From Thraustochytrium sp. TN22 (lineage: Eukaryota; Sar; Bigyra; Thraustochytrida; Thraustochytriidae): a DNA stretch of 53,050 bases. Positions 10,561-41,470 of this stretch are shown piece after piece. The notes under the pieces were generated by a model. That model did no database searches. It was given only the letters and a program-made list of their open reading frames with translations, and had not been told where the DNA came from. Within the stretch, counting starts at the first letter, position 1. Each line of letters opens with the position of its first letter. The position numbers and the translations under genes are program-made. The stretch is taken from NCBI GenBank assembly GCA_013306675.1, contig JABLUY010000253.1, forward strand, positions 1-53,050. Reading direction: 5' to 3'.

Positions 10561-13500
10561 TCAAGTGTTGCCGTCACTACCGGTTAAGGAGCGGAACATT
10601 CCCGTGAATTGTGCTAACCAGGATGAAGCTTGTGGTGCAGATTTGGGCACCGCCGAAGCCGGTGGTGCTGCTGCAGCGGACGTCGTCGACGAGGCCGACG
10701 AGGCCGAGGAGGAGGAGGAGGAAGACGACGACGAGGAGGAGGAAGAGGAGGAGGATGACGACGACGACGTCCGCACTGCCGCCATCCTGCGCCCAGAAGG
10801 CGTCTTCGTGCGCGCAGACACCGGGTCAGGCTTCTTTCTCATGCTGACAGAGGACGACTTGGTCGGGGTGCTTCGCTTCGTCGACCTGGGCGTTGGCGGT
10901 GCAGACGCCGTGGATGTCCCCGGGGAACGCTGCGTCGTGCGGGCTTCCTGCGCTGCTACGGCATTCGTCGGGAATAGCTTGCGGGTAAGACCGCGCTTGA
11001 GAGTATCGATGGCCGTGTTGAGCGAAGCCTCATCACACTGTTGGCCTTGTAGAACTTTGGCATGAGATACAGCTGTGAAGCTGATGTTCTTTGTGAATGC
11101 ACCGTATGTCTTGCTCTCCTTCAGCACAGAACGTGCATGCTGAAAGAACTTGAATGGAAGACGTTTCTCCTTCGTCTTCTTCTTGTTTAGCTCCTGCGCC
11201 TCCTTGAGCAAGCTGCTTATCTGCTTGCGAAGATCACTTGTGAGTTTGGCATCACGAGGCTTCGAGTCCGATTTTGCTGCAGCTGGAGACGTGCCTTTTG
11301 ACCGTCCAGCCGACGTTGGCGGACGCTTCTCCTTTTCCCGAGGCGGGGACGGCGACCGGTCCCGTTTCATACCGCGTGGCACTCGGGACTGAGATTCGGG
11401 ACGTTGGTGCGCCCGGGTCGCACTTTGCGAGCCTCTGCGAGCCTCCTTGGGTTTGCGCAAGACCTCCTCTTGCAGAGTTGGTGTGGCGACGTGTTCTTCC
11501 GTGCCGACTAGAAGCAGCAGCATCGGTTCAGATGCCGCCACCTCAAGTCGTTCATGAACACGGAGAGTCGTTCGCTTACGCTTGGCGAGAACGAATACGT
11601 CACGCTCGTCCTTGAGGTCCTCGAAGTGGCGAAGATCAGCCCGACGAAGGATGATGAGCGCCTTGGAGACATCCGGAAGCACGTGCTGAGCCAGGTAATT
11701 TAAGCTCTTGTCAGTTGACGCCTCCAAGAGACAAACAAGAAGCTGCTCCCTGCCCTTGGAGCTAGCGGACTCCTTCAGCCACTGGAACTCGCTTGCAGCC
11801 CAGAGTCGGTCCGCAGGGAAGTCCTCAGGCATCAGCTCCGACTTGAGCGCACCTTGCACCTTGAGGCCACCATGCAGAGCGCCAAGCTCCTTGAGCTTAG
11901 CTCGCAGCGCAGACGTCGTGGTCGCCACTGGTCGGGCAACCTGTGAATGCGCGGAGGATTTCAGGTTCTTCTTGTGGTGGAAGAAGCGGTTCACCTTGAG
12001 GCAGACCAGGCCAGCCTCGTCAACAAGGTGATTGAACTCCACGTCCTCCCAGAACGTCTTCACCGGGAAGAAGACCTTGGCCGCCACCGTGCTTGCCACG
12101 TTCAGGTACACGAAGGAGTACACAGAGTAGGACACCATGAAAGGGTGCTTCGGCTCCGTGCGCCGCGCCTGCGCATCGCGACGGATGCCAATCAGGCCGT
12201 ACTGGTCCTCCCCGCCGGTCAGCTCTCGCTTGGTCTTGGCGGCGGCTTTGGCCTCCGTTGGCGCACTTGCCTGTCGCAAAGTCGGGCCCTTGGCTGGCCA
12301 GACTCGCATCCGCTTCTTGCCCTGCAGGGACGCCGGCTTGGCCTGTTCGTCTTGAACGATGGCCTCGACGCCGGACATGACCGTCGCAAAGTCGCACGCC
12401 TCTGGCGACGCCTGCAGCGCGCCCTCCGGCACCTCCTCGTCGGTGAGCTTGCGCTCATAGCACACGTCCACGTTGTCGTCGAGGATCCAGACCCACGGCA
12501 GGCCCAGCGCGTGCGCGGCCAGCTGCACGAAGAGGCGCGCGTAGCCGATCCCGCCTCTCTCCGCGAAGACGCGATTCTTCTTGCCGCCTGACGCCTTGGA
12601 CGCCATGGACGGGGGCATGCCGATAACCATGTGCGCAGACCCGTAGGCGGTGACGTAGTCGTCAAACTGCTTGCCGCTGCGCACCACGATGCAGACCACG
12701 GTCGGTTTGCAGTTGTCCTTGCCAGAAGGCGCAGGGAGCGCCTGGTCGTAGTCGAGCAGCGCGACGCCAGCGCGGTTGTACGAGGGCACGAAGACCCAGC
12801 GCACCGCGTCGGCACCATCCGACTTGTCCACCTTGCGCTTGACAAGGTCAATGTCGAGCAGCAGGGTCCGCCCAGCACCTTCGTCTTCTTCCCGGAGGTA
12901 CGCCTGGACGTGGTCAGCGTCAGCGTGAACGCTGAGACCGTGGAAACCCGCGTACGGGACCGAGATGCAGGCGCCCTCACCGACCCACGTGAGGCCGGAC
13001 ACGACGTGCTGCTTCTTGCAGTAGGTCCTGTCAAAGCGGGGCGTGGGGGAGCTGGCAGCGACCCTAGCGTATGCCGACTGTTGCGAAGGCGAGACCATGA
13101 GGGCGGCGCCGCTGACGCTTTCATCGCGCTTGGGCTCCAACGGAAGGCCTCCGGCGGCTTGGCTGCCGCGTGCGCCTGCGTCCCAGAGCATGCTCTGCAC
13201 GTAGGCGCGCGCGCGCCGCACGCGCTGGCTAAACGACTGCCGGGCGTCGCTCAGGCCCGAGGGGCCGCTCTCGTTGTGACCGGGGAGCGACGCATGAAGC
13301 TTCTGCAGGGCGTCCGCGCTCTTGACGTACGCCTCCAGCGCGGCCTCCCAGTCCTTCTCCGAGAACCGCCCATCAAAGTTGATGCATCGAATTGCCACCT
13401 CAGGGTCTGAGCAGCCCTTGGCATCCAGCGGAGGGCTCGAGGCGCCACGCGAGAGTGCTTTCTCCAGCGCGTTGATTTTGCCGAGACCGGCCTTGCTCTG

Positions 13501-16500
13501 GATGTTCTCGCCGTCCTCCGCGCGCAGGTAGCCAAGGTAGGACTTCCGCCACGCGTTGCTCTCCTCGCTGGCCAGCATGAGGGCGAGAATACGCTGTTGC
13601 AGCACCGTCGCGTGGTATTGCCCCTGCCGAGGCTGGTTGTACATGCTACAGAGCGCCGGGAAGCCAGGTGGCTCGGTGCTCACCACGAGGTCGCGCCAGT
13701 AGGGAAGCGTCCAGGTGGCACTCGGGACGGGCGTCATTGGGCCAGGTGGAGCGGGAATGGCCCGCTCGATGGCATCCTTGAGCAGCTTGATGAAGTACAG
13801 GTAGGTGCCAGTCTTGCCTTGTTGGCACTGCGCCATGAGCAGGAGGCGCCGCGGGTCAACCTTTGGCGAAGAGTGCCCGCTGTCGTAGTGACCCTTGCCG
13901 CCGCCGCCGCCGCCGCCGCCACCGTCGCCTTCTGCCTCGGTGCCTCTCGCCCGGCCGCCGTCAGAAGGCTTTCTCGTCTTGTAGGCCTTGAAGTCGTGAA
14001 GCGGGTTCTCGACCACGGCGACATGGGACCCGTCCTCGAGCTTGACAAGCTCAGTGCAAGGTGGGGCTGCACTCTTGCCGCGGCCCATGCCCGCGACGTA
14101 GAGGTCAATCGGGCCTGGGATACACTGGTCGATGCGGTGCTCGCCCCACGTACCGCGGTACTTGTGCTCTATAGCTTTCTGCAGCTGCGCGTTGAAGCGT
14201 GTGCCGTTCATGAGCACCGTGGGCAGCACGTGCACGTAGCGTCGGGCTGTCCACGTGCCGAGACGCGCACAGGTCGCATCGCCGCTCCGCAGCGCATCAC
14301 GAAGCCTCGAGCGCAGCTGCTGCTCTGAGTCGACGTGGAAGCGAACCTGGTCGCCAGGGTCGATCACCGCGTAGCTGCCACCCTTGGCGAAGTAGCGACA
14401 CACGTCCTCGTCAGCGAAGAACTCGTTCAGGTCCGCGTTCAGCTCGTCCCAGCTGATGTCGCCCTTGTCCTCACTTGAGCCTTTCCCCTTTACCTGGAAG
14501 CGTCGCATGGTCTTCTCGTTCTTGTCCAGGCCCGGGTAGCGGCAGACGCGGCCGAACTCCTGCACGAAGGTCGAGTAGGTGGGCGACGAGCGCAGGCGGA
14601 TGTCGAGGAAGCGGAACGAGTGCGGGAAGGTGTCGCCCATGCGGCCCTTCTCGCAGAGGATGACAATCGTGGGCAGGTTCTCGAGGTCCTCGTACTTGGC
14701 GGTCTTCTGCAGCGCCTTGGGCTTGCGGCCCTTGTCCCGGGCGTCGCGCTCCTCGCGAGCGACCGCCTCAACGTGGGACCGGTTGACGCGGTCCACCACC
14801 GTCTCGCTCATGGACTCGTCGGCCTTCTGCTTTCTGCTGGCCGTCTCGTCCTCGCTGGCGGCGCGCACGCTCGGATGCCGCAGATCGCGCTTCCAGGTCC
14901 AGGGCTCCAGCTGCGTGAAGAGGCTGGTCGCGCGACGTGGCGCCTTGGACTTCTCCGCCTTGGAGCCCTTCCGGCCATCGCTGCCGCCTACGTCGGCTAC
15001 GACGCTGAGCAGGCCGCCGTGGGTCTTGTCCGTGAGGCCGAGCTTCTGGAGAGCGCTGCGCAGGCCGTCCTGGATGGAGAGGTTCTCGTCCGTCTCGTAG
15101 ACGCGGATGACGGCCATGCGGCCAGTGCGGTAGCGCGGGTGCACGTCAAGGAGATCGTGCATGAGGCGGTCGGTTTCGTTGTACCAGGCCTCCGAGGTGT
15201 TGCCTTGCAAAGTTGTGTGGTCCTCGCGGTTGCGCTCGAGTTTCTCCGAGATGATGTACTGCCAGGCGAAGCGCCAGTGCTCGGGGCTCGCCAAGGTCTT
15301 GCTGGTCGCGAGCTCCTTGACCGTGTCCACCCATTCGTTTCCAAGCCTGATGCGAAGCGCACCCTGCACGTCCTCGTTGCTCAGCTCGTGCCAAGCACCG
15401 TTTTGGCTTGCGTTCAGCAGTACGTCGAGAACGTGCTGGACGTTGGCCTTCTCGACGCCTCCTGCGATGAGGAATTTGCTGACCTCCTTGTCGGGCTGCG
15501 ACGTCTCGTTTGGCCACATCTTGTCCAGGAAGCCGAGGTGGGCTGCGAACGTTTTGAGCAGGCTCTCGTCGAGCGCGAGGCGCCCGACATCGTCCTGCTG
15601 CAGGGCCCGGAAGATGTCACGGCGCGGCGAGGTCATGTCCCAGAGGTTGGCGTGGTCGACGCGATAGACCGCGATGTAGGTGAGTGAGAGCAGGTAGTCG
15701 GCCATGATGATGTGGCCATCGAAGAGCGGCGTCGACGGCGCCACCTTGTACTCGTCACTCTTGCGCTTCTTGGTGGTTCGCTTGCCAAATGCCTTGTCGA
15801 TCAAACCCCGGATGGTGTCGAACGCTTGGTCCTTGAGCACGCGCTGCCTCCTCCGCGGCAGACAGTCCGCTGCAATGCCGGCGCGCTCTGCATCCTGTTC
15901 GGTGTCGCAAAGGAGCGGGACCCCAGAGCTCTGAATCGTGTACGTGCCCTTCTCACAGCTTGCCCTCTTTCTCGCGATCTTGTCCTGATCGTTGCCAAAA
16001 CCGAGCCAATGCATGAGGCCCGTTCCTGGCTGAAAGGCCTCCTCCGGGATGCTCACCTCCCTCGGCAGAGTCAGCTTCAGCTTCTCCTTGGTGCCCTTGT
16101 CCAGCACGAGGGTCCCCTTGTCTAGCTTCGCCACGACCTCCGGAGGAAGCGCCGCACGGGTTGCGAGATCGAGAACCTGGCAGAACGCCTTGTACTCGTG
16201 CATTGGGTACCGGAACGTGCGACCGAGCACGTCCACGTGAAGCCCGCGCGGGTTGACCAAGACATCAGCGGAGCCAGCAATGCTCAGCCGCAGCGGCTGC
16301 ACGGCCTCCGGCACGGCCCACGTGGCCGTCTCCACAAAGTAGTCCATGCTGCGGTACAGCGAGGCTTCCTTGAACCACCGGACGACGTTCTTGTCCTCCA
16401 CGCGAGAACGAGACGTGAGCACATTCTGCGGCGTCGCCGAGACCAAGAGCCGGAGGACGTTCTTGTTGTGGTCAAGTTTCTCGTTATTGAGAAACCAGTC

Positions 16501-17997
16501 TTGGGCGCCGTCCTTGGTGGGCGCGAAGTGGCACTCGTCAGCGATGATCACGAGGAGCGTGCGCGGATCGTCGACTTCGTCCTCCATCCACTCACGGTGC
16601 GAGTTCATGAGCGCCTTGGGCACCTTGGTGTGCTTGAGAACGCGGCCGCCCTTGAGCTTGGCCCTGGTGACGCGGTCCTCGGTCTGGGACTGCAGCGAGT
16701 TGAAGTTGGGCGTGAGCACGACGAAAGAGACCTTGTCGAACTTTGCGGCCCAGCTACCCCCGCCGTTCTCGCCGAATATGACCTCCTCGGCCTTTTGCAG
16801 CAGCTCCTCCGCCACCTCACGCTGTTCCGGATGCGCCACGTCGGGCTGCTCGGAGCCCGCGACCGGGCGACGCAGGGCCTCGCACACGTAGGCGTCCTTG
16901 GGGATGTTAATCTCGATGCACATCATGGCGCCCATCTCGTCCTCGCTCAGCTTGGCGTCTCGCGCGCTGTCGAGGCACGCAGTTACACCAGCGTCGTGAC
17001 GCTCCTGGAGGAGGATCCCGAAACTCGCAAGCGCCTGAGTGAGCTGCTCCCATGCCTTCTCCTTGCGCGCCTGCGCGGCAGCGTCGTCGGCTTTGACGAG
17101 CAAGTCGACGGCGAAGCGCGTCCGCTCGACTGTTTCGGTCGAGAGCGACGGCATGGTCAGCTCCAGCTCGCCCTCCTGGCCGTTCACCTCGCTTGGCCCG
17201 CTTGTGACGAAGGAGATCTGCACGCGCCGGTCCTCGCCGACCAGGTCGGTCTCGTCCTCCGCTTCGTCCGCAAAGTTCTCCTCGTCCTGGCTCTCGATAC
17301 TCTTCGCGAGTAGCGCCCTGGCCTGCTCGGCTTCGTCTTTGCTGAAGGCGACCAGGACGCTCTTGATATTCTCCCTGTCGCCCGATGCATGGATGACAAT
17401 GACACACGTCTCTGGATGACGCTGAAAGTAGGCCTGCATCTGGTCCTTCAAATTTGGCCCATCCTCGAACTCCATGAGGACCTTCTTCATGAGGCGAAAC
17501 CCCTTTTGCTCGCTCTTCCGGGTCAGCTTTCCCGTGCCCAGGTCCCAGAGCACCCCGAGCACGTAGCCCGTCTCCGCGCTCGCTGTGAGGCACGCAGCTC
17601 CACCTGACGTCGTCCCGAGCATCGGCTGGCCCTGGCCTGCCAGCACGCTCAGGCATCGTGCCACCAAGTCGAGGGCCTCCACGTGCGGAAACGACTTCTT
17701 GAGTCCATCGACATTCTCTAGCCCAGTCTCTCCGACAGCCACGTCGCCCTCCTTGCCTCCCTCTGGCACCCAGCACACGCGCAGCAGCTGCGAGAGCGCC
17801 TGCAGCTCCACGTCGCCGCTCTTGCTCAGCTCCTTGATGGCCTCGACGCTGTTCTCCACGTCATCCTCGTATTCTGTCGCCTTCTCTGCATTGAGGACCA
17901 GCACGAGCCGTAGCTCGTTCCTCTGCGCCTTCTGCGGCTTCTGCGGCTTCTGCTCCCCTGCATTACCAGCCAGCGTTGGCGCCGTCTTCAGGCTCAT
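10561..17997 (-). CDS. GREB1-like permuted SF2 helicase-glycosyltransferase, copy 1
   Basis: 2478 aa from the Met at 17997. An open frame continues upstream to 18162, but the paralogues align only from this Met onward. Helicase motifs occur in permuted order: a motif Ia-like L-T-P-N-F-N-S, DECH at 487-490, S-A-T-P, then motif VI Q-E-F-G-R-V-C-R (Q1146), and only afterwards a Walker A, Q-C-Q-Q-G-K-T (K1395). A glycosyltransferase domain follows, with D-D-N at 1840-1842 and a downstream W-E-D-V-E-F. This arrangement is that described for GREB1/TAGT proteins. The core is nearly identical to copy 2. The region after K-N-L-K (nt about 11960) is strongly diverged and carries a KKx basic stretch, one copy of the ~90-aa C-terminal module (about 2247-2344) and a poly-Ser tail. 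Probably nuclear and acting on nucleic acid; the substrate is unknown. Confidence 0.85.
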   Translation of the reverse strand: MSLKTAPTLAGNAGEQKPQKPQKAQRNELRLVLVLNAEKATEYEDDVENSVEAIKELSKSGDVELQALSQLLRVCWVPEGGKEGDVAVGETGLENVDGLKKSFPHVEALDLVARCLSVLAGQGQPMLGTTSGGAACLTASAETGYVLGVLWDLGTGKLTRKSEQKGFRLMKKVLMEFEDGPNLKDQMQAYFQRHPETCVIVIHASGDRENIKSVLVAFSKDEAEQARALLAKSIESQDEENFADEAEDETDLVGEDRRVQISFVTSGPSEVNGQEGELELTMPSLSTETVERTRFAVDLLVKADDAAAQARKEKAWEQLTQALASFGILLQERHDAGVTACLDSARDAKLSEDEMGAMMCIEINIPKDAYVCEALRRPVAGSEQPDVAHPEQREVAEELLQKAEEVIFGENGGGSWAAKFDKVSFVVLTPNFNSLQSQTEDRVTRAKLKGGRVLKHTKVPKALMNSHREWMEDEVDDPRTLLVIIADECHFAPTKDGAQDWFLNNEKLDHNKNVLRLLVSATPQNVLTSRSRVEDKNVVRWFKEASLYRSMDYFVETATWAVPEAVQPLRLSIAGSADVLVNPRGLHVDVLGRTFRYPMHEYKAFCQVLDLATRAALPPEVVAKLDKGTLVLDKGTKEKLKLTLPREVSIPEEAFQPGTGLMHWLGFGNDQDKIARKRASCEKGTYTIQSSGVPLLCDTEQDAERAGIAADCLPRRRQRVLKDQAFDTIRGLIDKAFGKRTTKKRKSDEYKVAPSTPLFDGHIIMADYLLSLTYIAVYRVDHANLWDMTSPRRDIFRALQQDDVGRLALDESLLKTFAAHLGFLDKMWPNETSQPDKEVSKFLIAGGVEKANVQHVLDVLLNASQNGAWHELSNEDVQGALRIRLGNEWVDTVKELATSKTLASPEHWRFAWQYIISEKLERNREDHTTLQGNTSEAWYNETDRLMHDLLDVHPRYRTGRMAVIRVYETDENLSIQDGLRSALQKLGLTDKTHGGLLSVVADVGGSDGRKGSKAEKSKAPRRATSLFTQLEPWTWKRDLRHPSVRAASEDETASRKQKADESMSETVVDRVNRSHVEAVAREERDARDKGRKPKALQKTAKYEDLENLPTIVILCEKGRMGDTFPHSFRFLDIRLRSSPTYSTFVQEFGRVCRYPGLDKNEKTMRRFQVKGKGSSEDKGDISWDELNADLNEFFADEDVCRYFAKGGSYAVIDPGDQVRFHVDSEQQLRSRLRDALRSGDATCARLGTWTARRYVHVLPTVLMNGTRFNAQLQKAIEHKYRGTWGEHRIDQCIPGPIDLYVAGMGRGKSAAPPCTELVKLEDGSHVAVVENPLHDFKAYKTRKPSDGGRARGTEAEGDGGGGGGGGGKGHYDSGHSSPKVDPRRLLLMAQCQQGKTGTYLYFIKLLKDAIERAIPAPPGPMTPVPSATWTLPYWRDLVVSTEPPGFPALCSMYNQPRQGQYHATVLQQRILALMLASEESNAWRKSYLGYLRAEDGENIQSKAGLGKINALEKALSRGASSPPLDAKGCSDPEVAIRCINFDGRFSEKDWEAALEAYVKSADALQKLHASLPGHNESGPSGLSDARQSFSQRVRRARAYVQSMLWDAGARGSQAAGGLPLEPKRDESVSGAALMVSPSQQSAYARVAASSPTPRFDRTYCKKQHVVSGLTWVGEGACISVPYAGFHGLSVHADADHVQAYLREEDEGAGRTLLLDIDLVKRKVDKSDGADAVRWVFVPSYNRAGVALLDYDQALPAPSGKDNCKPTVVCIVVRSGKQFDDYVTAYGSAHMVIGMPPSMASKASGGKKNRVFAERGGIGYARLFVQLAAHALGLPWVWILDDNVDVCYERKLTDEEVPEGALQASPEACDFATVMSGVEAIVQDEQAKPASLQGKKRMRVWPAKGPTLRQASAPTEAKAAAKTKRELTGGEDQYGLIGIRRDAQARRTEPKHPFMVSYSVYSFVYLNVASTVAAKVFFPVKTFWEDVEFNHLVDEAGLVCLKVNRFFHHKKNLKSSAHSQVARPVATTTSALRAKLKELGALHGGLKVQGALKSELMPEDFPADRLWAASEFQWLKESASSKGREQLLVCLLEASTDKSLNYLAQHVLPDVSKALIILRRADLRHFEDLKDERDVFVLAKRKRTTLRVHERLEVAASEPMLLLLVGTEEHVATPTLQEEVLRKPKEARRGSQSATRAHQRPESQSRVPRGMKRDRSPSPPREKEKRPPTSAGRSKGTSPAAAKSDSKPRDAKLTSDLRKQISSLLKEAQELNKKKTKEKRLPFKFFQHARSVLKESKTYGAFTKNISFTAVSHAKVLQGQQCDEASLNTAIDTLKRGLTRKLFPTNAVAAQEARTTQRSPGTSTASAPPTPRSTKRSTPTKSSSVSMRKKPDPVSARTKTPSGRRMAAVRTSSSSSSSSSSSSSSSSSSSSSASSASSTTSAAAAPPASAVPKSAPQASSWLAQFTGMFRSLTGSDGNT
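10700..10775. repeat. GAG/GAC triplet microsatellite encoding poly-Ser
   Basis: Runs of GAG, GAC and GAT triplets on the plus strand encode a run of about 22 serines, broken by alanines further on, in the C-terminal tail of GREB1-like copy 1 on the minus strand. Neither of the other copies has this run, so the tail grew after the copies separated. Confidence 0.85.
11960..17820. repeat. Near-identical paralogous block, copy 1
   Basis: This block matches 20800-26665 in direct orientation with only scattered base differences over most of its length. It covers the helicase and glycosyltransferase domains of copy 1. Similarity collapses sharply at the codons for K-N-L-K near 11960. Internal diverged patches lie at about 15290-15420 and around 15755-15785. 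Confidence 0.85.
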
Positions 17998-18606
17998 TTC
18001 CGGGAGGCACAGGCTGGCAGCACAGCCCAGCCCGGGCGTCGACCAGAGGCAGGCAGGCCGGCTGTAAGGCCGCTGGCCAGGGGCCGACCTTCGCGTTTTG
18101 CCCTTGCCTTGCAGCTTCGGCCGGGTCGCGGCAAAACCAGAGACGGCTCCGAATGCACTCACTGGCAGCCTGAGCTCCTACGTCACGGTACGGTACACCT
18201 ACGCAGCCCACGCCAGCCCACGGCAAGCCGGGGGCAAGATTTACAAGCACCAGTTCCGGTCTGTGGTGATCGAGCGAGAGCAGGTGCATGCTCAAGAACT
18301 TTGCGAAGGGTGTGCGTTTTTCAAGCCTGGTCTGGTATGAGAGGAAGATATCGGTGCCAAACACGCAGCAACGCGCAGGGGCCTCCGAGTCCAGCTCTGC
18401 CCTAGCTTGGCCTAAGGCGGCCTAAGGCGGCCTAAGTTAGCTCGAGGCATTCGCATAGTAGCCAGGCCGGGGGGGAACGCCTGTGTAGCGCGCTGCATGC
18501 CGCTGCAAGCGCTGCAGAGCTGGCTGCTTTGTGCAGCGCAGCTAGCCCAGCCCAGCTCAGCCTCCCTCCGAAATGTTCAAGTGGCAGCCAATCTCCTTCT
18601 TCAAAT
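17998..18606. promoter_or_regulatory. Gap between GREB1-like copies 1 and 2
   Basis: 609 bp holding the promoter of copy 1 and the 3' UTR of copy 2, both on the minus strand. At 18411-18436 the decamer cctaaggcgg is repeated (two full units plus a partial). Several CTGCA-rich words cluster at 18490-18545. I see no tRNA, no transposon end and no target-site duplication. Confidence 0.5.
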
Positions 18607-27318: not shown

Positions 27319-29508
27319 ATGGCGCGCAGCTCGCGGCCGCGGAGAGGCGCGGCGGCCTCGAGCAGCAGCACGGAGCAAGCTATTGACTTGCCGGAGGTGG
27401 TGGAGCTGGACACGGAGGAGAGCAGCGCGGGCGAGGTCGCGCCAGGCCTCGACCTGGCTGTGAGTGTGTTGCACTCTGCGTTTGCGAGCCTGCCGACGCT
27501 GGACCTTGGCGGGACGTTGCTAGGGGACGCCGGGGTGCAGCTGCTGGAGCCGGGGCTCTTCTCGGCGAGGAGTTTGACGCACCTGGACCTGAGCGCGAGC
27601 GGAGTCGGGGACCGGGGCACGCAGATGCTTGCGAAGGTGGTCATCGAGAACATGTATCTGCGCGAGGGCCTGAAGCAGCTCTCGCTGGCGCGCAACAAGG
27701 TCGGCAAGGACGGCGCGCAGGCGCTGGCAGACCTTCTGCGCAACAAAGGCAACTTCAAGTGCCTCGACCTTCGCGGGAATCACGGGCTGACCACGGACGG
27801 GGCTGCCGACCTCTTTGATGCAGCAATGCTTGGGCGCCCCGAGGAGCTCGTGCTCGCCGATTGCGCCCTGCAGGACAACGCGCTATGGGCCATGGCAGCC
27901 AAGGTCGAGTCCAAGGGCCACCCTTGGACCAAGGACGACTTCGCCAAGCAGCACCTCGACGCATGCGGAGGCTTTCAAGCCGTGCACCCGGATGCCCACA
28001 AGCGCAAGATCCGAGTGGACCTCGGCGGCCATCACTTCCCTGCGAATGTCCTCGAGGCCTTCTCGGCCAAGATTGCATGCCTCGAGACCTTTTGCACGGT
28101 CTTGGTCTCCATCGCCGATCCAGCCACATCAGGCGTGCTGAAGCCTCCCTTGGAGAGCAGCAGCGAACAAAGCAAGAGCAGCGAGCTCGCGACAGACCTG
28201 CTGCACCGCCTCGGTGCCGATGTAGGGATCGAGGTGGTAGAGCCTCTCTCGGCTCGAGCCCCCAACTTTGTCTCAAAACCCTGGGCGGCCGAGCTGGCGT
28301 CGGCCATCTGCCCACCAGATGGCGCCGCGACCTCTCAGAGAGCGCTCCAAGTGCGGCTCGTTGAGCTTTGCGAGAACCCGGAACTCACAGGCATACCCTT
28401 TGATCTTGAGGCAGCGTTTTCGGACCGGCATGTTGTTGTCGTCTTCCGCGTTTCGGACCGCGATGCGCTGAAGAACACGATCCTGGAGGCGCGGACGAGG
28501 TACCATCCGGAGCAGGTCCCGTGCATACATGATGGTGTGGAGCTCTGCGCTCTCGTCTTCCGGTCAACTGCGGCGGACCCGGAGCCGGTGCCAACGGCCC
28601 CAGGAACCCTTCCTCCTGTCGGAGTCGTGCCTGTGGCAATCAAGAACGAGGTCGGAGCACCGCTTCAGACTCCAGGGCCTCCTGCTTCGATACCAGGTTC
28701 GCCGGCGCCGAAGCAGACTCCGCGCAATTCCAAGCAAGACAAGGAGGAAATTCGCTCCAAGACGAAGAACTTCCTTGAAGGTCTACACGAGTCTCTGGAG
28801 CTTCCTTTCAGGCAAATGAAACCGGGCTTTTTCCTCAGCGAAGACAAGGACGGCAAGATGTCAGGTCGCAAAAAGCGGCGCGGCCAGGCGCGCAATATCG
28901 CATGCAGGGCCTTATGTGAGTTCTTTGTGACCTCCACGCCAAATCTCAAGCTGAAATGGGACCGGCTCGACCCCAAGGATCAAACCGATCTCCTCAACAC
29001 AGAAATCACCAATTGGAGAGCCAGGAAGGACCACGAATCAAAACGCATCGCGGGGCTCAAGGACCGGGGCGACCAGAAGTCGAAGCGTCCCGGAAAGGGT
29101 CCGCGCCAGGCACAGCGCGGGGCCCCGCCCAACACCAAGGCGACTCCGGGCCAATCAAGAGATGCAGCGTCAACGGCGTCCGTCTCGCCGAGGCCACCTG
29201 CCGAGGTCACCGCGCGCGAGACGATTGACTCAGCGGATGGACCCATTAGTGTCGATACGTCTTCCATTGAGCGCAACAAGACAGGAAAGAGGAAGAAGAC
29301 GATGACGGCAATCTCTGCTCCCGCCGGTGGGGCACCCACGACTACCCCGCGGCACCCCGTGCCTGCGTCATCGGAGACGTTGAAAAGAGGTCGGCCGGGG
29401 TCAGCAGACTCGTCCGCGTCTGCGCAGTCCAAGCGATCAAAGGGGCAAGACCAGCTCGAGGAGGCGAAGAACGTCGTTGCTCAAGATCGTGTCGGGAAGG
29501 ATGACGAC

Positions 29509-29551
<43 letters not shown>

Positions 29552-29658
29552 GCGACGATAATGGCGAGGAGGATATTATTTCCGTGGTCGAAACGCTAAG
29601 GGTCCCAAAGAACGTTTCCAGCAAGAAGCAGGACGTCATCAACATCGATCTCGACTGA
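27319..29658 (+). CDS. Ribonuclease-inhibitor-type LRR protein with basic tail and SIM-like motifs
   Basis: 779 aa, intronless. Residues about 45-190 carry RI-type LRRs (L-T-H-L-D-L-S-A-S-G-V-G-D-R-G; L-K-Q-L-S-L-A-R-N-K-V-G; L-D-L-R-G-N). The middle (about 200-430) is unrecognised. Residues about 470-590 are basic and helical with tryptophans, and could bind nucleic acid or protein. The Ser/Lys-rich tail has a 14-Gly run. Short hydrophobic-acidic strings resemble SUMO-interacting motifs: near the N-terminus (A-I-D-L-P-E-V-V-E-L-D), near the end (D-I-I-S-V-V-E) and at the extreme C-terminus (V-I-N-I-D-L-D). The gene is head-to-head with GREB1-like copy 2 and tail-to-tail with copy 3. A functional partnership with them is a guess from position. 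Confidence 0.75.
29512..29547. repeat. (GGC)12 microsatellite
   Basis: Twelve perfect GGC triplets encode most of a poly-Gly run in the tail of the LRR protein, between an acidic D-D-D-H and D-D-N. Similar GCC/GGC runs occur in the Gly linkers ahead of Walker A in GREB1-like copies 1 (about 13896-13920) and 2 (about 22740-22763). Confidence 0.9.
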
Positions 29659-30170
29659 GCCATCCTCACGGAATGAACTGAAGCACATACTCGGCATCGA
29701 ATGTAAGACAATACACGTAGGAACATAGAATACACTAGGGAGTCTGCGCCAAGTTGGGCGCCTTCGCAGCGGGGCAGGGCGCGGGGCAGGGCGCAAAGGG
29801 CGGCAAGTAGTTGCTGGAAGAAGGAAAGGCGCCGGGAGTTACTCACTTTGCGTTCATTTTTATGAATGAATGCCCAACTCTGCAAAGGTGCAAGGCGACG
29901 TCGCCCCTCCCCCCTCCGAACAGTCTGCACTCACATCAGCGAGCTGTAGAGGCAGGAGAAGATCGACATCATCAATCCTTCTGGGTAGCGGAGAGCAAGC
30001 GATCGCGGCACCGAACTTCCGCGACAAGGGCAGGGTCATCAAGGTCGCAGAAGTCAGTTGGCGAGTTGTGTTGTGTGATGTGATATTCTTTGGGAGTATA
30101 GGGCTCGCTTTCTCTGCACCTGGCCGTTCGCTTGCTAGTGCGAGCACTCTTCGCTCTTTGCAGCAGCAGC
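29659..30170. other. Convergent 3' region
   Basis: 512 bp between the stop codons of the LRR gene (plus) and GREB1-like copy 3 (minus). It should contain both 3' UTRs. It includes a short imperfect repeat ggggcagggcgc at about 29771-29794. No gene seen. Confidence 0.5.
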
Positions 30171-33100
30171 TTAGAGGCTCTTGGTCTTGCGGTTGAGCTG
30201 CTGCTTGAGGCTCTTGAGGGCTGTGATGAGAGCTGGCCTGTCGAAGGACTGGCTTCCAAACACGTTCTCCCGCTCGAGCACGCTGAGGCTGATCTGTCGG
30301 GTGAACTCGCTCAGGCTGCCGCAAAGCTTGAGTTGTGCCCGTGCGTAGGGGAAGAACGCCTCGGGAATGCGCTTGTCCTCAGCCTCAGAAACCCTGAGGC
30401 ACGCCTCGATGACATCGCGGCGAGCATCGTCGAGCAGGATACCGCCGGACGCGGACGTCTGGAGCGGCACAGCATCGCTAGCCGGTGTCGGAGGCTCGGC
30501 CTTAATCGGCGAGGACGTTCCCTTGGCTGTCGCCACCTCGGACTTGATGGATGTCAGCTGGTTTGGCGCAGTCTCCCCGGGCGTCGTTCCTTGCCCGCCA
30601 GGGTCAATCCGAGGCTTCTTCTGGCTGGATGAATTGCGCTCCGTCGGCGACGGGCTTCGCTTCTGGCGACCTGCTGCTGGCGACGCGCCCAAGAGCTCGC
30701 AACGCGTCGCAGCCCATGTGTTCGCTGGCACGGGCGACTCTTTGTTAGTTCCGACCAAGTGGAACTCGGTAACAAAGGGCTTGTCAGCGCGCGCCACGTG
30801 GTGGACGTGGAAAATGTGCTTGGACTTGCACCCGAGCTTCAGGCTGGGTTGGCCGTTGGTCTTGAGCTCCTCGAAAGAGTTGACCTCGCTACTACGAAAC
30901 ACGAGGAGAAGCGAGGTGACATCCGTCAAAGCTTGATAGATGCGGACAGCGAGAAGGTTACAGGCCGCCTGGTCAGATACCTCGAGGAAGCAGACCGGGA
31001 CCTGGTCGGTCGCCGGGAATGCCCGGTCCTTCATCACGGTGCCCTCCTGTACGACCCACTCGTGCGCGGCGGCAGCCCAGTGCAAAGTGGGAGGGAAGAA
31101 GGCCGGCATTTGCCTGGAGAGGAGCGGCACTGGGCGCAAGCCGCCGCACGCGGCGCGAAAGTACGCGAGCGCGTCCGACACTTCGCTAAAGTGCGCAGCG
31201 GTAGCCGCGGCGCGCTTACGTGCAGCGCTTGCTGCGCCCAACTTGAGGTTCTTCTTGTGATAGAAGAATCTGTTCACCTTGAGGCAGACCAGACCGGCCT
31301 CGTCGACCAAGTGGTTGAACTCGATGTCTTCCCAGAAGGTCTTGACCGGGAAGAAGACCTTGGCCGTGACAGTTCGCTCCACACTAAGGTAGAAGAAGGA
31401 GTGCACCGAGGCGGAAACCGAGAAGGGTTGCTCGGTCTCGCCGAGCAGAGCCTGCGAGTCGTGGCGAATGCCGATCAAACCGTACTGGTGCATGCCGCCC
31501 GACACGCTCGCCTTACTTTTGACGGGTTCGGCGCTGACTTGCGGGGCTACGCCTTGTCGCAGGGTGCCTGCTTTCGCCGGCCAGACCTCCATCCGCTTCG
31601 CGCCACGCCAGTGCTCGAGAGGGATCGACTTTTGGCCGCCGTGCACAACGTCTTCAACGCCCTCCATCACGGCAGTGAACGTGCACGGCTCTGGGCAGTC
31701 TTTATGGGCGTCTTGCGGCACGTCTTCGTCCGCGAGCCTTCGTTCGTAGCACACGTCAATGTTGTCATCCAGGATCCAGACCCACGAGAGCCGCAGGCTG
31801 TAGGCCGCGCGCTGGATGAAGTGTCGGGCGTATCCTATGCCGCCTCGGTCCGCGTACACGAGCGGACTCTTGCCATTGTACACGCTCCTGGGCCTGAATG
31901 AAGGTGGCATGCCAATGATGATGTGTGCAGACCCGTATGCCGCGACATAGTCGTCAAACTGCTTTCCACAGCGTACCACGATGCAAACGACGGCCCGCGC
32001 GCCGCTCTCAGATGCTGGAAGCGCTTTGTCATAGTCAAGGAGCGCGACGCCAGCGCGGTTGTACGAAGGTACGAAAATCCACCGCACGTCTCGCCCGATG
32101 TCGTACTCTGGCCGGTTCACCTCGCGCGTAGCTAGATTGATGCGCAGCAAAGGTGGCGCCGCGCTCTCACTCCTGGCGAGGTACGCATACGCAAAGCTCG
32201 CATCGGCGCGGACTGTCAGACCGTGAAAGCCTGCATAGGGCACTGAGATGGAGGCGCCCTCGCCAACCAGGCGGAGGTTGGACACGACGTACTGCTTTGC
32301 GTCATACCTGTCGTCAAACCGCGAGGTGATGGGCGCAGCCGCGAAGCTCGCATAGGCGATCCGGTGAGCTGGCGAAAAGGTGAGCGGGACTGAGGCCCCC
32401 TCGGTATCATCATCCGGGGCCAAGTCCTCGGCTTTGGCCTCGCCGCCGCTCGTAGCTCCACTGCACAGCTGGCTTTGTACATAGGCTCGCGCCAGGCGCA
32501 CGCGGTCGCCGAACGAAAGCGCTCTTGCCTCTTCTTTGTCGCCGTCGCTGTCGCTGTCGTTGGCGTTGCCGAGGTTGTCATCGTCGTCGTCGTGCTGAAG
32601 CAGACTAGACTCGAGCTCGGGCATGTGATCCCTTTTCCATGCCTTGGGCTTGATTTCCTTGCTTGAGACAGCCTCGTTGAGCTTCATCCGGGCGGTTGGA
32701 TCGCGCACGTACGTCTCCAACGCAGCTCGCCATTCCTTCTCGGAGAAGCGGCCATCAAAGTCGATGCAGCTGATCGCCATCTCGAGCGCTGAGCATTTGG
32801 TGGCGTCCAGAGGCGGGCCCGCGTCGCGAGGCACCGTGTCCTCCAACGCCTTGATCCTGTCGAGCCCGGCCCTGCTCTGGATGGCCTCCCCGTCCTCGGA
32901 GCGAAGGTAGTCCAGGTACGCCCTGCGCCAACTCATGCCACCGCCCTCCGTCGCAGCCAGAAGGAGCGCCAGCAGCCGCTGCCGCAGCACCGTCGCATGA
33001 TGCGGGCCCTTTTGGGGCCGGTCGTAGGCGCCGCGCAAGGCCGGGAAGCCGGGCGGCTCGCTGCTCACGACGAGGTTACGCCAGTAAGGAAGCGTCCAGG

Positions 33101-36100
33101 TGGGCCGAGGAACTGGCGGCAACGGGCCCGGAGGTGCGGGGATGGTGATCTCGACGGCGTCCTTTAGAAGCCGGAGGAAGTAGAGATAGGTGCCAGTCTT
33201 GCCCTGCTGGCACTGCGCCATGAGCAGGATGCGACGCGGGTCCCGGGCCTTGTCGGTCCGCGTGCTGTCGTAGTGGACCTGTCGAGAGGGCCTTTTGCGT
33301 TGGCCTGGGTTGCCCGCATGGGTCTCGTCCTCTTCGTTTGAGAGCGTCGAGGTCTTCTGCGACACCGGCTTTTTTGTTCGGTACGCGGCAATGTCGTGCA
33401 GTGGGTTGGAGACACGCACGCTGAGAGGCCCTTCTCCGCCTTCTTGTGACAGCTCCGCGCGTAGTGCTCCGCTGTGTGCCTTTTTGCCACGCCCGGGACC
33501 AGCCACATAAAGGTCGAGCGGGCCCGGGATGCATTGGTCGATGCGCTGATCACCCCACGCGTCGCGGTACTTGTGCTCGATGGCCTTTTGCATCTGCGCA
33601 CTGTAGCGCTGGGGGTTCATGAGAACGGTTGGAAGCACATGCACGTAGCGCCTTGCCGTCCACATACCAAAGCGCGCTCTCGCCCTCTTGCCACTGGCCC
33701 GCAGCGCGTCTTGGAAGCGAAATCGCAGCTGCAGCTCAGAGTCCGCGTGGAAGCGCACTTCTCCGCCCGGATCAATCATCGCGTAGCTGCCGCCCTTGGC
33801 AAAGTAGCGGCGGTTTTCGTCATCGGCAAAGAAGCCTGCTAGCTGCGGCTCCAGGAAATCCCAGCACACTTCGCCGGCTTTGTCCTCCGTCTCTCGCGAT
33901 GGGTCCAGGAAGTCCGGCAGCACCTCCTCAGACTCGCTAGAGAGGGCGGCAGAATCTCCGCTGTTGGCGCTTGGGGAGGCAGAATCTCCGCTGTTGGCGC
34001 TTGGGGAGGCGACCTCGACCTTGTCCTCGTCCACTGAGACTGGAATGACCTGGAAGATCGTGGACGCCTCGGGACTGACATCATCGAGACCGGGGTAGCG
34101 GCAGACCCGACCGGCCTCCTGCACGAAGGTCGAATAGGTTGGCGAGGAGCGCAACCGCAGATCCAGGAAGCGCAAGGAGTGCGGGAAGGTGTCCCCCATC
34201 CGGCCCTTCTCACAGAGGATGACGATGCTTGGCAGGTTCTCGAGGTCTGCGTACTTTGCGACCTTTTGCAGCGCCTTGAAGGGGCGGTTCTTCGCCTCTT
34301 TGTCGCGGTCCTCTCGCATACGTGCTTCGGCGTAAGAGAGGTTCACGCGATCCACCACGGTCTCCTTGGCCTCGGGATCGGCGGCCTGCTGGCTTGGGTG
34401 GCGCAGATCACGCTTCCAGGTCCAATCCTCCAGCTGCATGAAGAGGCTGGTCGCGCGGCGCGGGGCTCGCGACCGCTCGCCTTTGGCGCCCCTCTTGCCG
34501 TCGCTGCCGCCCACGTCCCCGACAACGCTGAGGAGGCCGCCGTGCGCGTCGTGGGTAAGGCCAAGCTTCTGTAGAGCGCTGCGCAGACCATCCTGGATCG
34601 AGAGATTCTCGTCGGTCTCGTAAACACGAATGACGGCCATCCGCCCAGTGCGAAAGCGCGGGTGCACGTCAAGTAGGTCGTGCACGAGGCGGTCCGTCTC
34701 ATTGTACCATGTCTGAGACGTGTTGCCCTGTTGAACGGCCCGGTCCTCCAAGTTGCGGACCAGCTTTTCAGAGATGATGTACTGCCAGCTGAAGAGCCAG
34801 TGCTTCGCGCTTGTCGTGTCCTCTCTCGTCGCGAGCTCTCCTGCCTCCTTCACCCAGGCATCGCCGAGGCGGGCGCGGAGCGACTCCAGGACGTCCTCCT
34901 TCTTGAGCTCGCCCTGCCAAACCTCGACATGACTTGCCACCAGCAGCACATCGAGGACGTGCTGAAGGTTGGCCTTTTCAACACCTCCGGCGATGAGGAA
35001 CTTGCCGACCTCGCGGCTTGGCTGCGGCCTGGCGTCCGCCGCCCCTGGCCACAGCTTGGCCGAGAACCCGAGGTGTATTGCGAACTCTTTGAGCAGACCC
35101 ACGTCGAGTGCAAGGCGCCCGACGTCGTCCTCCGTGAGCGTGCGGAAGACGTCCGGCCTCTCCGTGGCCGTGTCCCACAGGCAGTCTCGGTCGATGCGGT
35201 AGACCGCGAGGTAGGTCAACGAGAGGAGATAGTCGGCCATGATGATGTGGCCGTCGAAGAGCGGCGTGGAGGGTGCCACTTTGATTCCCTCCAGCTTGCG
35301 GTTCTTCCCTGTGCGCTTGCCAAAGGCGTTGTGGATTGCCGCGCGGACAGTGTCGAAGCTGTCGTCCACCAACACGCGCTGTCTCCTGCGTGGCAGACAG
35401 TCCGCGTGGACGCCAGTCCGGTCAGGGCTCTTATCCGTGTCACAAAAGAGCGGGATGTCCGAGGCAGTCACCGTGTAGGTCTTGAGCGCCCCTCGCTCCG
35501 CCTTGTGGATACGCTCTTCGTCACGGCCAAAGCCGAGCCAGTACATGATCCCGGTCCCAGGACGGAAGGCCTCGGCGGTGATGCTCACGCCTTTGGGAAG
35601 CGTCATTCTGATGTACTCCAGGCCGATAGGCTTCTCGAAGGCCGGTTTATCGCTCAGCGCGCTTGCTGCGTGCCGAGGAAGCGCGGATCGCGTCGCCACG
35701 TCGAGGACCTCGCAGAACGCCTTGTACTCGTGCATGGGGTACCGGAAGGCCCGACCATGGACGCCAACATGCAGGCCGTGCGGATCGACCTGGACGACTG
35801 TGGCGCCAGCGACCTTGAGGTGTAGGGGCGCCACGTCCGCCGGCACAGCCCAGGTGGCAGTCTCTACAAAGTAGTCCATGCTGCGATAGAGCGAGGACTC
35901 CTTGTACCACCGGATGATGTTCTTGTCCTCCACGCGCGACCGGGACGTGAGCACGTTCTGCGGCGTCGCCGAGACCAGTAGGCGCAGAACATTGCTGCTC
36001 TGCAGCTTTTCGTTGTTGAGGAACCAGTCCTGTGCGCCGTTCTTGGTGGGCGCGAAGTGGCACTCGTCGGCGATGATGACAAGCAGCGTGCGCGCGTCGG

Positions 36101-37493
36101 CAGCCTCCTGCTCCATCCAGTCGCGGTGGCCCTGCATCAGGGCGGCGGGCACCTTGGAGTGCTTAAGGACGCGGCCGCCCTCTAGCTTGGCCCTGGAGAC
36201 GCGGTCCTCCGTCTGAGAAAAAAGCGAGTTGAAGTTGGGGGTGAGCACAACGAAGGAGACCTTGTCGAACCTGTCTGCCCAGCTCGCCGCGGGGTCTGGG
36301 CCGAGGATCGCCTCCTGCGCCTTTCGTAGCAGCTCTTCCGCTACCTCGCGCTGCTCAGGGTACGTCACCTCCGGCTGCTCGGAGCTCGAGAGCGGGTTGC
36401 GCAGAGCCTCGCGCTCGACAGCGCCGCTCGGGATGTTGACCACGATGCACATCAGCGCAGCCATCTCGCTCTCGTTGAGCTTGGCATCGCGATCTATGTC
36501 GAGGCCCGTGGTGACTCGAGCGTCCTGCCGCTGGTGCAGCACAACGCCAAAGCTCGCGAGAGCGCGGGTCAGCTGACCCCATGCCTTCTCCGCGCGCGCG
36601 TGCGAAACCGCGTCGCCTTCCTTCGCGAGGAGGAGCCCCTGGGCCAGCTCGGTCCGTGTGCTGGGCTCCTGCGCCAGCGACGGCATGGTCAGCTCCAGCT
36701 CGCCCTCGTGGCCGTCGATCTCGCTTGGCCCGCGCGTCACGAACGAAACATGCACAGGCTGGTCGTCGCTTGCCGAATCAGTCTCGTCATCCGCCTCCTC
36801 GGCGAGATTCTCCTCATCCTGGCTGGCCTGGCTCTTGGCGAGCAGCTCCTGCACGAGCCCGGCGTCCTCCTGACCAATCACCACCAGGACGCTCTCGATG
36901 TTGCGACCTTCCTCTGCGCGAATCACAACAACGAGCGCGGATGTGGCAACTTTATCTAGCTCTGCCTCCAGCCTGGCGCCGAGATCCTCCGTGTCTTTGA
37001 GCTCCACCATTGTATCCTTTGTCATGGCCCGGAGCGGGAGGTGAATGATCTTGTTCTTGGGCAGCATGATCCCGCTCGCCACGTCCCGCAGAACGTCCCC
37101 CACGAAAGCGACTCTCTCCGGGACGTTCAAATGCGCTCCTCCATCTGGTGCACGCGCAAGGAAAGGGTGGCCCTTCTCGCTCGTCATCAAGCTCAGGCAG
37201 AGCGCCAGGAGCTCCAGGCCTTCCACCTGGCCGTACTTTCTCTTGAGCTTGCCGGCATCCTCAAGCCCGCTTCTGTCAACGTGTTGGCCGACCTCGCCCG
37301 ACTTGGCGTCGGCCTTGGCCTCCTTCACCCAGCACTCGCGCAGCAGCTGCGAGAGCGCCTGCACGTCCGCGGCGCCGCTCCGGGCGAGCTTCTGGACGGC
37401 CGAAGGGCTGTTGGCCACCTCCTCCTCGAAGTCCGTGGCAGCGTCCGCGTTGAGCACCAGCACCAGCGGCTTCTTCTTCTTTTCCTTCATCAT
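30171..37493 (-). CDS. GREB1-like permuted SF2 helicase-glycosyltransferase, copy 3
   Basis: 2440 aa from the Met at 37493, where the paralogues begin to align (M-M-K-E then L-V-L-V-L-N-A-D). The open frame runs upstream to 37757 without resemblance. It has the same permuted order: DECH at 476-479, motif VI starting Q1125, Walker A K1432, then D-D-N at 1909-1911 and W-E-D-I-E-F. It is clearly diverged from copies 1 and 2 throughout, so it is the older paralogue. Copy-specific inserts are a duplicated ten-residue S-P-S-A-N-S-G-D-S-type segment after motif VI and an acidic D-D-D-D-D stretch before the glycosyltransferase. The accessory domain after the glycosyltransferase resembles copy 2's more than copy 1's. 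A K-K-P-R-I-D basic cluster and a single C-terminal module (about 2350-2439) close the protein. Confidence 0.87.
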   Translation of the reverse strand: MMKEKKKKPLVLVLNADAATDFEEEVANSPSAVQKLARSGAADVQALSQLLRECWVKEAKADAKSGEVGQHVDRSGLEDAGKLKRKYGQVEGLELLALCLSLMTSEKGHPFLARAPDGGAHLNVPERVAFVGDVLRDVASGIMLPKNKIIHLPLRAMTKDTMVELKDTEDLGARLEAELDKVATSALVVVIRAEEGRNIESVLVVIGQEDAGLVQELLAKSQASQDEENLAEEADDETDSASDDQPVHVSFVTRGPSEIDGHEGELELTMPSLAQEPSTRTELAQGLLLAKEGDAVSHARAEKAWGQLTRALASFGVVLHQRQDARVTTGLDIDRDAKLNESEMAALMCIVVNIPSGAVEREALRNPLSSSEQPEVTYPEQREVAEELLRKAQEAILGPDPAASWADRFDKVSFVVLTPNFNSLFSQTEDRVSRAKLEGGRVLKHSKVPAALMQGHRDWMEQEAADARTLLVIIADECHFAPTKNGAQDWFLNNEKLQSSNVLRLLVSATPQNVLTSRSRVEDKNIIRWYKESSLYRSMDYFVETATWAVPADVAPLHLKVAGATVVQVDPHGLHVGVHGRAFRYPMHEYKAFCEVLDVATRSALPRHAASALSDKPAFEKPIGLEYIRMTLPKGVSITAEAFRPGTGIMYWLGFGRDEERIHKAERGALKTYTVTASDIPLFCDTDKSPDRTGVHADCLPRRRQRVLVDDSFDTVRAAIHNAFGKRTGKNRKLEGIKVAPSTPLFDGHIIMADYLLSLTYLAVYRIDRDCLWDTATERPDVFRTLTEDDVGRLALDVGLLKEFAIHLGFSAKLWPGAADARPQPSREVGKFLIAGGVEKANLQHVLDVLLVASHVEVWQGELKKEDVLESLRARLGDAWVKEAGELATREDTTSAKHWLFSWQYIISEKLVRNLEDRAVQQGNTSQTWYNETDRLVHDLLDVHPRFRTGRMAVIRVYETDENLSIQDGLRSALQKLGLTHDAHGGLLSVVGDVGGSDGKRGAKGERSRAPRRATSLFMQLEDWTWKRDLRHPSQQAADPEAKETVVDRVNLSYAEARMREDRDKEAKNRPFKALQKVAKYADLENLPSIVILCEKGRMGDTFPHSLRFLDLRLRSSPTYSTFVQEAGRVCRYPGLDDVSPEASTIFQVIPVSVDEDKVEVASPSANSGDSASPSANSGDSAALSSESEEVLPDFLDPSRETEDKAGEVCWDFLEPQLAGFFADDENRRYFAKGGSYAMIDPGGEVRFHADSELQLRFRFQDALRASGKRARARFGMWTARRYVHVLPTVLMNPQRYSAQMQKAIEHKYRDAWGDQRIDQCIPGPLDLYVAGPGRGKKAHSGALRAELSQEGGEGPLSVRVSNPLHDIAAYRTKKPVSQKTSTLSNEEDETHAGNPGQRKRPSRQVHYDSTRTDKARDPRRILLMAQCQQGKTGTYLYFLRLLKDAVEITIPAPPGPLPPVPRPTWTLPYWRNLVVSSEPPGFPALRGAYDRPQKGPHHATVLRQRLLALLLAATEGGGMSWRRAYLDYLRSEDGEAIQSRAGLDRIKALEDTVPRDAGPPLDATKCSALEMAISCIDFDGRFSEKEWRAALETYVRDPTARMKLNEAVSSKEIKPKAWKRDHMPELESSLLQHDDDDDNLGNANDSDSDGDKEEARALSFGDRVRLARAYVQSQLCSGATSGGEAKAEDLAPDDDTEGASVPLTFSPAHRIAYASFAAAPITSRFDDRYDAKQYVVSNLRLVGEGASISVPYAGFHGLTVRADASFAYAYLARSESAAPPLLRINLATREVNRPEYDIGRDVRWIFVPSYNRAGVALLDYDKALPASESGARAVVCIVVRCGKQFDDYVAAYGSAHIIIGMPPSFRPRSVYNGKSPLVYADRGGIGYARHFIQRAAYSLRLSWVWILDDNIDVCYERRLADEDVPQDAHKDCPEPCTFTAVMEGVEDVVHGGQKSIPLEHWRGAKRMEVWPAKAGTLRQGVAPQVSAEPVKSKASVSGGMHQYGLIGIRHDSQALLGETEQPFSVSASVHSFFYLSVERTVTAKVFFPVKTFWEDIEFNHLVDEAGLVCLKVNRFFYHKKNLKLGAASAARKRAAATAAHFSEVSDALAYFRAACGGLRPVPLLSRQMPAFFPPTLHWAAAAHEWVVQEGTVMKDRAFPATDQVPVCFLEVSDQAACNLLAVRIYQALTDVTSLLLVFRSSEVNSFEELKTNGQPSLKLGCKSKHIFHVHHVARADKPFVTEFHLVGTNKESPVPANTWAATRCELLGASPAAGRQKRSPSPTERNSSSQKKPRIDPGGQGTTPGETAPNQLTSIKSEVATAKGTSSPIKAEPPTPASDAVPLQTSASGGILLDDARRDVIEACLRVSEAEDKRIPEAFFPYARAQLKLCGSLSEFTRQISLSVLERENVFGSQSFDRPALITALKSLKQQLNRKTKSL
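33951..34010. repeat. 30-bp perfect direct repeat inside copy 3
   Basis: Two perfect adjacent 30-bp units (33951-33980 and 33981-34010) encode a doubled ten-residue Ser/Asn/Gly/Asp-rich segment in the linker after motif VI of GREB1-like copy 3. Perfect identity points to a recent slippage event. Confidence 0.93.
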
Positions 37494-41159: not shown

Positions 41160-41470
41160 TGTCGAGGTGTCACATCAAGACCCACGGGCTCGCCGTTAAA
41201 GACAGCCAACGAAGCACGGCCCTGGTGTCGTCGTCGATGCCCCACTTCCGGACGTCAAAATTGAGCTTCATGTGGCTCGGATCCCGCGCCGCCACCTCGG
41301 CGAGATGCTCTGTTCGCCGTCATGGCACGAGACGAAAGGCGCTGCGGTCGCAAGGCGGCCACGCCCCAGTACACCTCGCTCCGATGCTCTCGCCATCCGA
41401 CGCCACAGGCCTCGCCGGCATAAGGTCCTCGTCCTCGACGGCGAGAGTTTTCCCTTGCGCTCTGCGCGAT
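41160..41470 (-). pseudogene. Decayed lipase relic
   Basis: On the minus strand, 41355-41433 translates as R-P-V-A-S-D-x-E-H ... V-Y-W-G-V-A-A, matching the N-terminal part of lipase 2 with the strand before it deleted. Then, in another frame, 41222-41311 translates as A-E-V-A-A-R-D-P-S-H-M-K-L-N-F-D-V-R-K-W-G, matching the segment just after the nucleophile half. The intervening part with the catalytic serine is missing and the two pieces are frameshifted. It lies directly downstream of lipase 2 and marks a fourth, dead copy. Confidence 0.7.

Follow-up and report, generated by a model that had tools for sequence, protein, structure and literature searches.

In this work we describe a family of GREB1-like genes in Thraustochytrium sp. 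TN22, three of which lie on contig JABLUY010000253.1 of assembly GCA_013306675.1 (37.9 Mb in 453 contigs). The window is this whole contig, called C170 here and 53,050 bp in length, and coordinates given without a contig name refer to it. The best explanation that we can offer, in which we place about even confidence, is that these genes encode active-looking GREB1-type helicase-glycosyltransferases that operate with a family of leucine-rich repeat (LRR) proteins as a five-plus-four-gene system, and that the sugar acceptor is more likely to be a protein. The enzyme core, a cpSF2 helicase joined to a TAGT glycosyltransferase, is of a known kind. What is new is its presence in five copies with intact motifs, the divergence of the C-terminal modules of these copies, and an LRR family that shares a domain with them. 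The linked LRR gene in the window, which was absent from the initial annotation of this DNA, is the most informative clue.

The initial annotation had reported three giant paralogues, and these were confirmed as three long single-frame open reading frames (ORFs) of 2528-2730 aa on the minus strand. Its assignment of the proteins to the GREB1-like cpSF2 and TAGT families also held, with both domains scoring above the curated Pfam cut-offs in all three. The position earlier taken as the end of the third gene, 37493, is an internal ATG, and the ORF extends to 37757. Whole-genome profile searches, which were intron-blind and whose counts are lower bounds, found five cpSF2-GREB1 loci, three on C170 and two on a second contig, C442; the five TAGT matches in the genome fall in the same five genes. 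With the C442 copies and the LRR gene at 27319-29658 (+), the cluster appears to be bigger than was earlier stated. The GREB1-like genes are as follows.

10561..18162, minus strand: C1, 2533 aa from a GTG; the first ATG, at 17997, gives 10561-17997 and 2478 aa
18607..26799, minus strand: C2, 2730 aa
30171..37757, minus strand: C3, 2528 aa, or 2440 aa if the start is 37493
C442:119923-127866: C4, from the cpSF2-GREB1 and TAGT profile search
C442:130810-137760: C5, from the same search

The helicase cores of C1, C2 and C3 match cpSF2-GREB1 (PF20692) with E-values of 1.2e-109, 2e-111 and 4.8e-105, which exclude chance, and with scores of 353-374 bits against a cut-off of 26.2 in each of the three proteins. 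The initial annotation had also held that all key motifs are intact in the three copies. This was borne out, and extends to the whole genome set: DECH, SATP, QE[AF]GRVCR, QQGKTGT, LDDN and FWED occur once each and in constant order in 5/5 copies. Motifs II, III and VI precede Walker A (at residues 472, 505, 1131 and 1378 in C2), an arrangement found alike in every copy, and since Walker A (QQGKTGT) comes after motif VI, the core is a circularly permuted superfamily 2 (SF2) core.

13771..16839, minus strand: C1 cpSF2-GREB1 core, with DECH at 16528-16539, SATP at 16429-16440, QEFGRVCR at 14539-14562 and QQGKTGT at 13804-13824
22615..25686, minus strand: C2 cpSF2-GREB1 core, with DECH at 25375-25386, SATP at 25276-25287, QEFGRVCR at 23386-23409 and QQGKTGT at 22648-22668
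33162..36368, minus strand: C3 cpSF2-GREB1 core, with DECH at 36057-36068, SATP at 35961-35972, QEAGRVCR at 34098-34121 and QQGKTGT at 33189-33209

Across all ten copy pairs the ratio of nonsynonymous to synonymous substitution rates (dN/dS) was 0.25-0.42 in cpSF2 and 0.16-0.25 in TAGT, ratios that are rough for the nine pairs other than C1-C2, where dS is ~0.9-1.7. The enzyme domains described here could be inactive and have a structural role as mere scaffolds, a view that has been put forward for the vertebrate GREB1 helicase. We consider this very improbable, because all five copies retain Walker A, DECH, motif VI, DDN and WED and dN/dS is low.

The transferase domains match TAGT (PF20691) with E-values of 6.5e-10 (C1), 5.8e-9 (C2) and 4.2e-12 (C3). 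All three window proteins score above the cut-off of 27.5 bits, at 36.6-46.9, and the phage T6 enzyme ggt itself scores 35.8. Following the helicase motifs, the transferase motifs run in the order PSYNRAG, GG[IV]GYAR, LDDN and FWED[VI]EFN in each of the five copies, and the domain is predicted to be a metal-dependent GT-A glycosyltransferase.

11965..12795, minus strand: C1 TAGT, with the profile match at 12367-12795, PSYNRAG at 12766-12786, LDDN at 12472-12483, FWED at 12031-12054 and HKKN at 11965-11976
20806..21636, minus strand: C2 TAGT, with the profile match at 21265-21636, PSYNRAG at 21607-21627, LDDN at 21313-21324 and FWED at 20872-20895
31248..32078, minus strand: C3 TAGT, with the profile match at 31584-32078, PSYNRAG at 32049-32069, LDDN at 31761-31772 and FWED at 31314-31337

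The kinship to DNA-glucosylating enzymes that had been proposed for this domain stood, as both copies tested matched the phage family PHROG 842 (beta-glucosyl-HMC-alpha-glucosyltransferase; P0002 E 8.5e-7, P0003 E 4e-9). The window proteins and T6 ggt have the curated families TAGT and PHROG 842 in common, and a comparison with the single T6 sequence gave E 0.014. The phage ggt-type enzymes differ in being stand-alone proteins of ~260-280 aa, unlike the fused window proteins. By eye, the DDN of the window proteins corresponds to DDD in 4/4 phage sequences, and their WED to an ED pair in 3/4, which the program left unaligned; in place of their PSYNRA, one of the four phage sequences has PSYKRA and another has PTMGRA.

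The LRR gene of the window, LRRa, belongs to a family of four (LRRa-LRRd, 30-37% identity). Profile comparison with hhalign showed that the stretch following the LRRs in these proteins matches the domain that lies directly after TAGT in the GREB1-like proteins. The family and the copies of the shared domain in the window are listed here.

27319..29658, plus strand: LRRa, LRR partner gene of 779 aa with an LRR_6 match, divergent from C2 with 519 bp between the ORFs
28240..28554, plus strand: LRRa copy of the GREB1-shared domain, from profile comparison
C442:128472-130730, plus strand: LRRb, divergent from C4 as LRRa is from C2
C442:138025-143322, plus strand: LRRd, divergent from C5
C442:104778-108160: LRRc, with TIR-like, STAND-NTPase-like and LRR segments in that order, and carrying the GREB1-shared domain
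11617..11847, minus strand: C1 post-TAGT domain common to the LRR proteins, from hhalign
20425..20679, minus strand: C2 post-TAGT shared domain, approximate, from profile comparison
30858..31121, minus strand: C3 post-TAGT shared domain, approximate, from profile comparison

With three LRR proteins the shared domain scored 44.2, against maxima of 17.5 in 100 column shuffles and 18.1 in 44 unrelated windows and a score of 13.9 for the reversed control. With all four it scored 42.9, where 200 column shuffles reached 19.5 at most, and leaving out any one GREB1-like copy from the four-protein comparison gave 38.3-45.1. The LRRd copy was also searched against the whole genome at E <= 10, as a single-sequence, intron-blind query that missed the diverged GREB1-like copies; it returned the four LRR genes and then a fifth match at E 0.08. 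All four LRR family genes found sit within the two GREB1-like clusters, which together make up ~66 kb of the 37.9 Mb, and three of them start opposite a GREB1-like gene. The confinement of this family to the GREB1-like clusters is, among the new findings, the strongest argument that the GREB1-like and LRR proteins may work together. No description of such a link was found among the publications listed by literature searches that covered only part of the literature; we also know of no described GREB1 that carries a post-TAGT domain shared with LRR partners.

A possible role for these proteins can be proposed as follows. The enzyme core would be a circularly permuted SF2 helicase or translocase fused to a TAGT-family glycosyltransferase. 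Within the nucleus, the helicase may travel along nucleic acid or remodel it, and a UDP-sugar would supply the sugar that the transferase places on an acceptor close by. The site of action would be set by the LRR partners together with the variable C-terminal modules, and the GREB1-like and LRR proteins may meet through the domain that they share. The nuclear location, which the initial annotation had also put forward, is consistent with the basic stretches resembling nuclear localization signals (K[KR]x[KR] or four basic residues) seen in 8/8 proteins checked; these were counted without a chance control and are its sole basis.

The initial annotation had further suggested glycosylation of hydroxymethylated bases. 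The part of its functional inference that concerns a GREB1-like enzyme family stood, and the part that concerns a DNA-base substrate was not borne out. The search of the genome for TET/JBP dioxygenases, one of the checks that it had named, gave no Tet_JBP match in the 37.9-Mb assembly, a weak negative since no control genome matched either. The only gene found in the genome with a C5-methyltransferase domain (PF00145) contains the stretches CFTKSY and PPCQPYSR, which resemble DNMT2, a tRNA enzyme. Because no source of a hydroxymethyl base was found, a chromatin or regulatory protein is favoured over a DNA base as the acceptor. GREB1 is reported to O-GlcNAcylate (add O-linked N-acetylglucosamine to) the estrogen receptor ER-alpha (PMC10908778) and is listed among the protein O-GlcNAc enzymes (PMC12645433).

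It is possible, though distinctly less probable, that the enzymes do glycosylate hydroxymethylated or otherwise hydroxylated DNA bases, with the helicase exposing the base and the hydroxyl coming from a non-TET oxygenase. The helicase suggests a nucleic acid substrate, and among the members of TAGT and PHROG 842 are phage enzymes that add glucose to modified hydroxymethylcytosine in DNA (PMC13216743). A candidate oxygenase partner lies beside C4.

C442:117273-119750: PhyH-type 2-oxoglutarate (2OG)-Fe(II) dioxygenase, E 2e-5, convergent with C4 and ending 172 bp from the C4 stop

By eye, this protein has the residues HRD...H...R; its N-terminal part is basic, and the GC content at third codon positions (GC3) of its gene, 0.790, is close to that of the cluster. 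The protein has no sequence match in the PDB and none in viral, prokaryote or phage sets. Against a role in base modification, the PhyH match is weak, a related piece is found on another contig (C248), and no PhyH gene was found on the contig of the window, either in the related search or in Pfam scans of 20 other window ORFs. The genomic setting of the phage enzymes differs. Three T-even-type phage copies have as neighbour a gene for a dCMP hydroxymethylase or a thymidylate-synthase-like protein, the neighbour of the fourth copy (L047) is annotated as "pyrimidine hmase", and no such source gene is known here.

Several observations weigh against the preferred reading of active GREB1-type enzymes with LRR partners and a protein acceptor, as do the lower-bound gene counts and the uncontrolled Tet_JBP negative given above. 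Matches to OGT-type GT41 enzymes are present on four contigs, strong on three, and a genome with such genes has no evident need of a further protein glycosyltransferase in the nucleus. The TAGT profile match ends at position 103-145 of 205, whereas T6 ggt reaches position 205 and spans the whole second part of the profile; the ED/WED segment lies beyond the match and was assigned by eye. When a profile of the five TAGT domains was compared with one of four phage TAGT domains, the score of 27.8 fell below the maximum of 31.8 in 100 shuffles (mean 15.5). Of the single LRR sequences compared with the GREB1-like profile (LRRd 36.4, LRRa 22.9, LRRb 18.9), only LRRd is clear of the controls, and given the low scores of LRRa and LRRb the link through the shared domain holds at the level of profiles. 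No LRR gene begins next to C1 or C3, and ~12 kb separate LRRc from C4. Linkage of genes, moreover, does not prove interaction of their proteins.

The two closest copies in the window show an uneven pattern of divergence. Within a core block of 5,963 aligned positions, the identity between C1 and C2 is 95.5%.

11966..17909, minus strand: C1 side of the shared core block, 95.5% identical to the C2 side
20807..26762, minus strand: C2 side of the shared core block, ending where TAGT ends

Past TAGT the two genes diverge sharply, with dS 1.65 and then saturated, and the proteins are still recognisably related. A 301-bp pair of 100% identity in this comparison arose from overlap of the two query windows and was discarded. 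The simplest reading is gene conversion of the core between C1 and C2, each gene keeping its own tail; a recent duplication followed by replacement of a tail would give the same picture. A module that by eye is presumed to be helical recurs within the tails. Its copies were counted with a hidden Markov model (HMM) built from the same copies that it then detects, which serves for counting only.

10954..11205, minus strand: C1 tail module, single copy, from the HMM of the family's own tail repeats
19510..19761, minus strand: C2 tail module, copy 1, tail-repeat HMM
18967..19218, minus strand: C2 tail module, copy 2, tail-repeat HMM
30177..30410, minus strand: C3 tail module, tail-repeat HMM

This HMM detected no tail module in C4 or C5. 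The tails also hold low-complexity and basic stretches. Short hydrophobic-plus-acidic stretches resembling SUMO-interaction motifs were seen by eye at both ends of LRRa, in the LRRd tail on C442 and in the C4 tail.

Near-identical cores with diverged tails would also fit an innate-immunity or self/non-self system, in which LRR receptors of the NLR (nucleotide-binding, leucine-rich repeat) kind detect viruses or foreign nucleic acid and bring in the helicase-glycosyltransferase, which then marks or silences the target. The LRR partners resemble NLR receptors in their use of LRR_6 repeats, and LRRc, with its TIR-like and STAND-like segments before the LRRs, may be a TIR-NTPase-LRR receptor, although its scores are weak. 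All four LRR genes carry the GREB1-shared domain. GC3 is 0.71-0.80 in the nine cluster genes of C170 and C442 against 0.79-0.95 in 11 other genes measured, and the gene copies, the recombining tails and this low GC3 would all reflect conflict. We nevertheless regard such a system as unlikely. In LRRc, the matches to TIR_2 (E 0.0077) and NPHP3_N (E 0.0015) are both under the Pfam cut-offs, a P-loop-like stretch in the first frame is without the usual lysine by eye, and the gene is spread over two overlapping frames (by an intron, a frameshift or an error). In the PDB, the first frame has matches on a glycine-rich run, which were disregarded, and the second frame matches LRR proteins. LRRa, LRRb and LRRd have no NTPase match, and LRRa differs from NLR receptors in showing only LRRs, the shared domain and a low-complexity tail. 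PADLOC gave no match in the five proteins scanned. More doubtful again is a system of two parts, NLR-like LRR receptors and GREB1-type enzymes matched through the shared domain, that would recognise foreign or selfish nucleic acid, glycosylate its bases or chromatin and so silence it, with vertebrate GREB1 as a tamed descendant.

Animal GREB1 and GREB1L likewise consist of a permuted SF2 helicase fused to TAGT, the layout of GREB1 being taken from PMC6163654. The genes described here differ in being five clustered single-frame copies with intact helicase motifs and in giving no match to the GREB1_N domain, either in the genome (where no control genome matched either) or, at E <= 1, in the three window proteins. 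C2 had no sequence match in the PDB.

The sources cited above leave the origin and the enzymatic role of GREB1, a hormone-response cancer gene, unsettled between a protein O-GlcNAc transferase and a relative of DNA-modifying enzymes. In Thraustochytrium sp. TN22, an organism that is probably unicellular and culturable, the same core is present in five copies, and the catalytic motifs that were checked are intact. The partner family that shares one domain with it offers a handle on the role of the C-terminal part and on the acceptor of the family, and could make the function of the GREB1 family testable in a microbe.

With regard to the origin of the cluster, a mobile element was considered and rejected. 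The window's long repeats are accounted for by the three GREB1-like genes, the three Lip_C genes and runs of low complexity; the sole inverted pair (64 nt, 78%) joins two such runs, and no transposase was among the Pfam matches of the 20 window ORFs scanned. A giant virus or phage origin was also rejected, as no relatives were found in the viral, prokaryote, phage and plasmid sets that made up the collections scanned, none being of eukaryotes; the peptide patterns used were narrow and this is a weak negative. Ordinary eukaryotic genes are present on both contigs, for coatomer epsilon on C170 and an EHD/dynamin protein on C442. Elsewhere in the genome, an omega_3_PfaA frame for polyunsaturated fatty acid (PUFA) synthase (3044 aa, 2540 bits) lies beside an oppositely oriented frame of 2083 aa, presumably the PUFA-synthase gene layout of thraustochytrids.

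Some other features of the window are unrelated to the GREB1-like genes. The very end of the contig (1-199) holds 11 perfect copies of an 18-bp repeat. At 298-2757 (+) is a gene for an 819-aa protein with a C-terminal NEL domain (novel E3 ligase, PF14496, E 4e-23), a domain known mainly from LRR effectors of bacteria and encoded here by a eukaryotic contig. Three neighbouring Lip_C (PF24708) proteins are encoded at 38462-45855 (-), and a WW domain is fused to a galactosyltransferase-type (Glyco_transf_7) domain at 49919-51157 (+).
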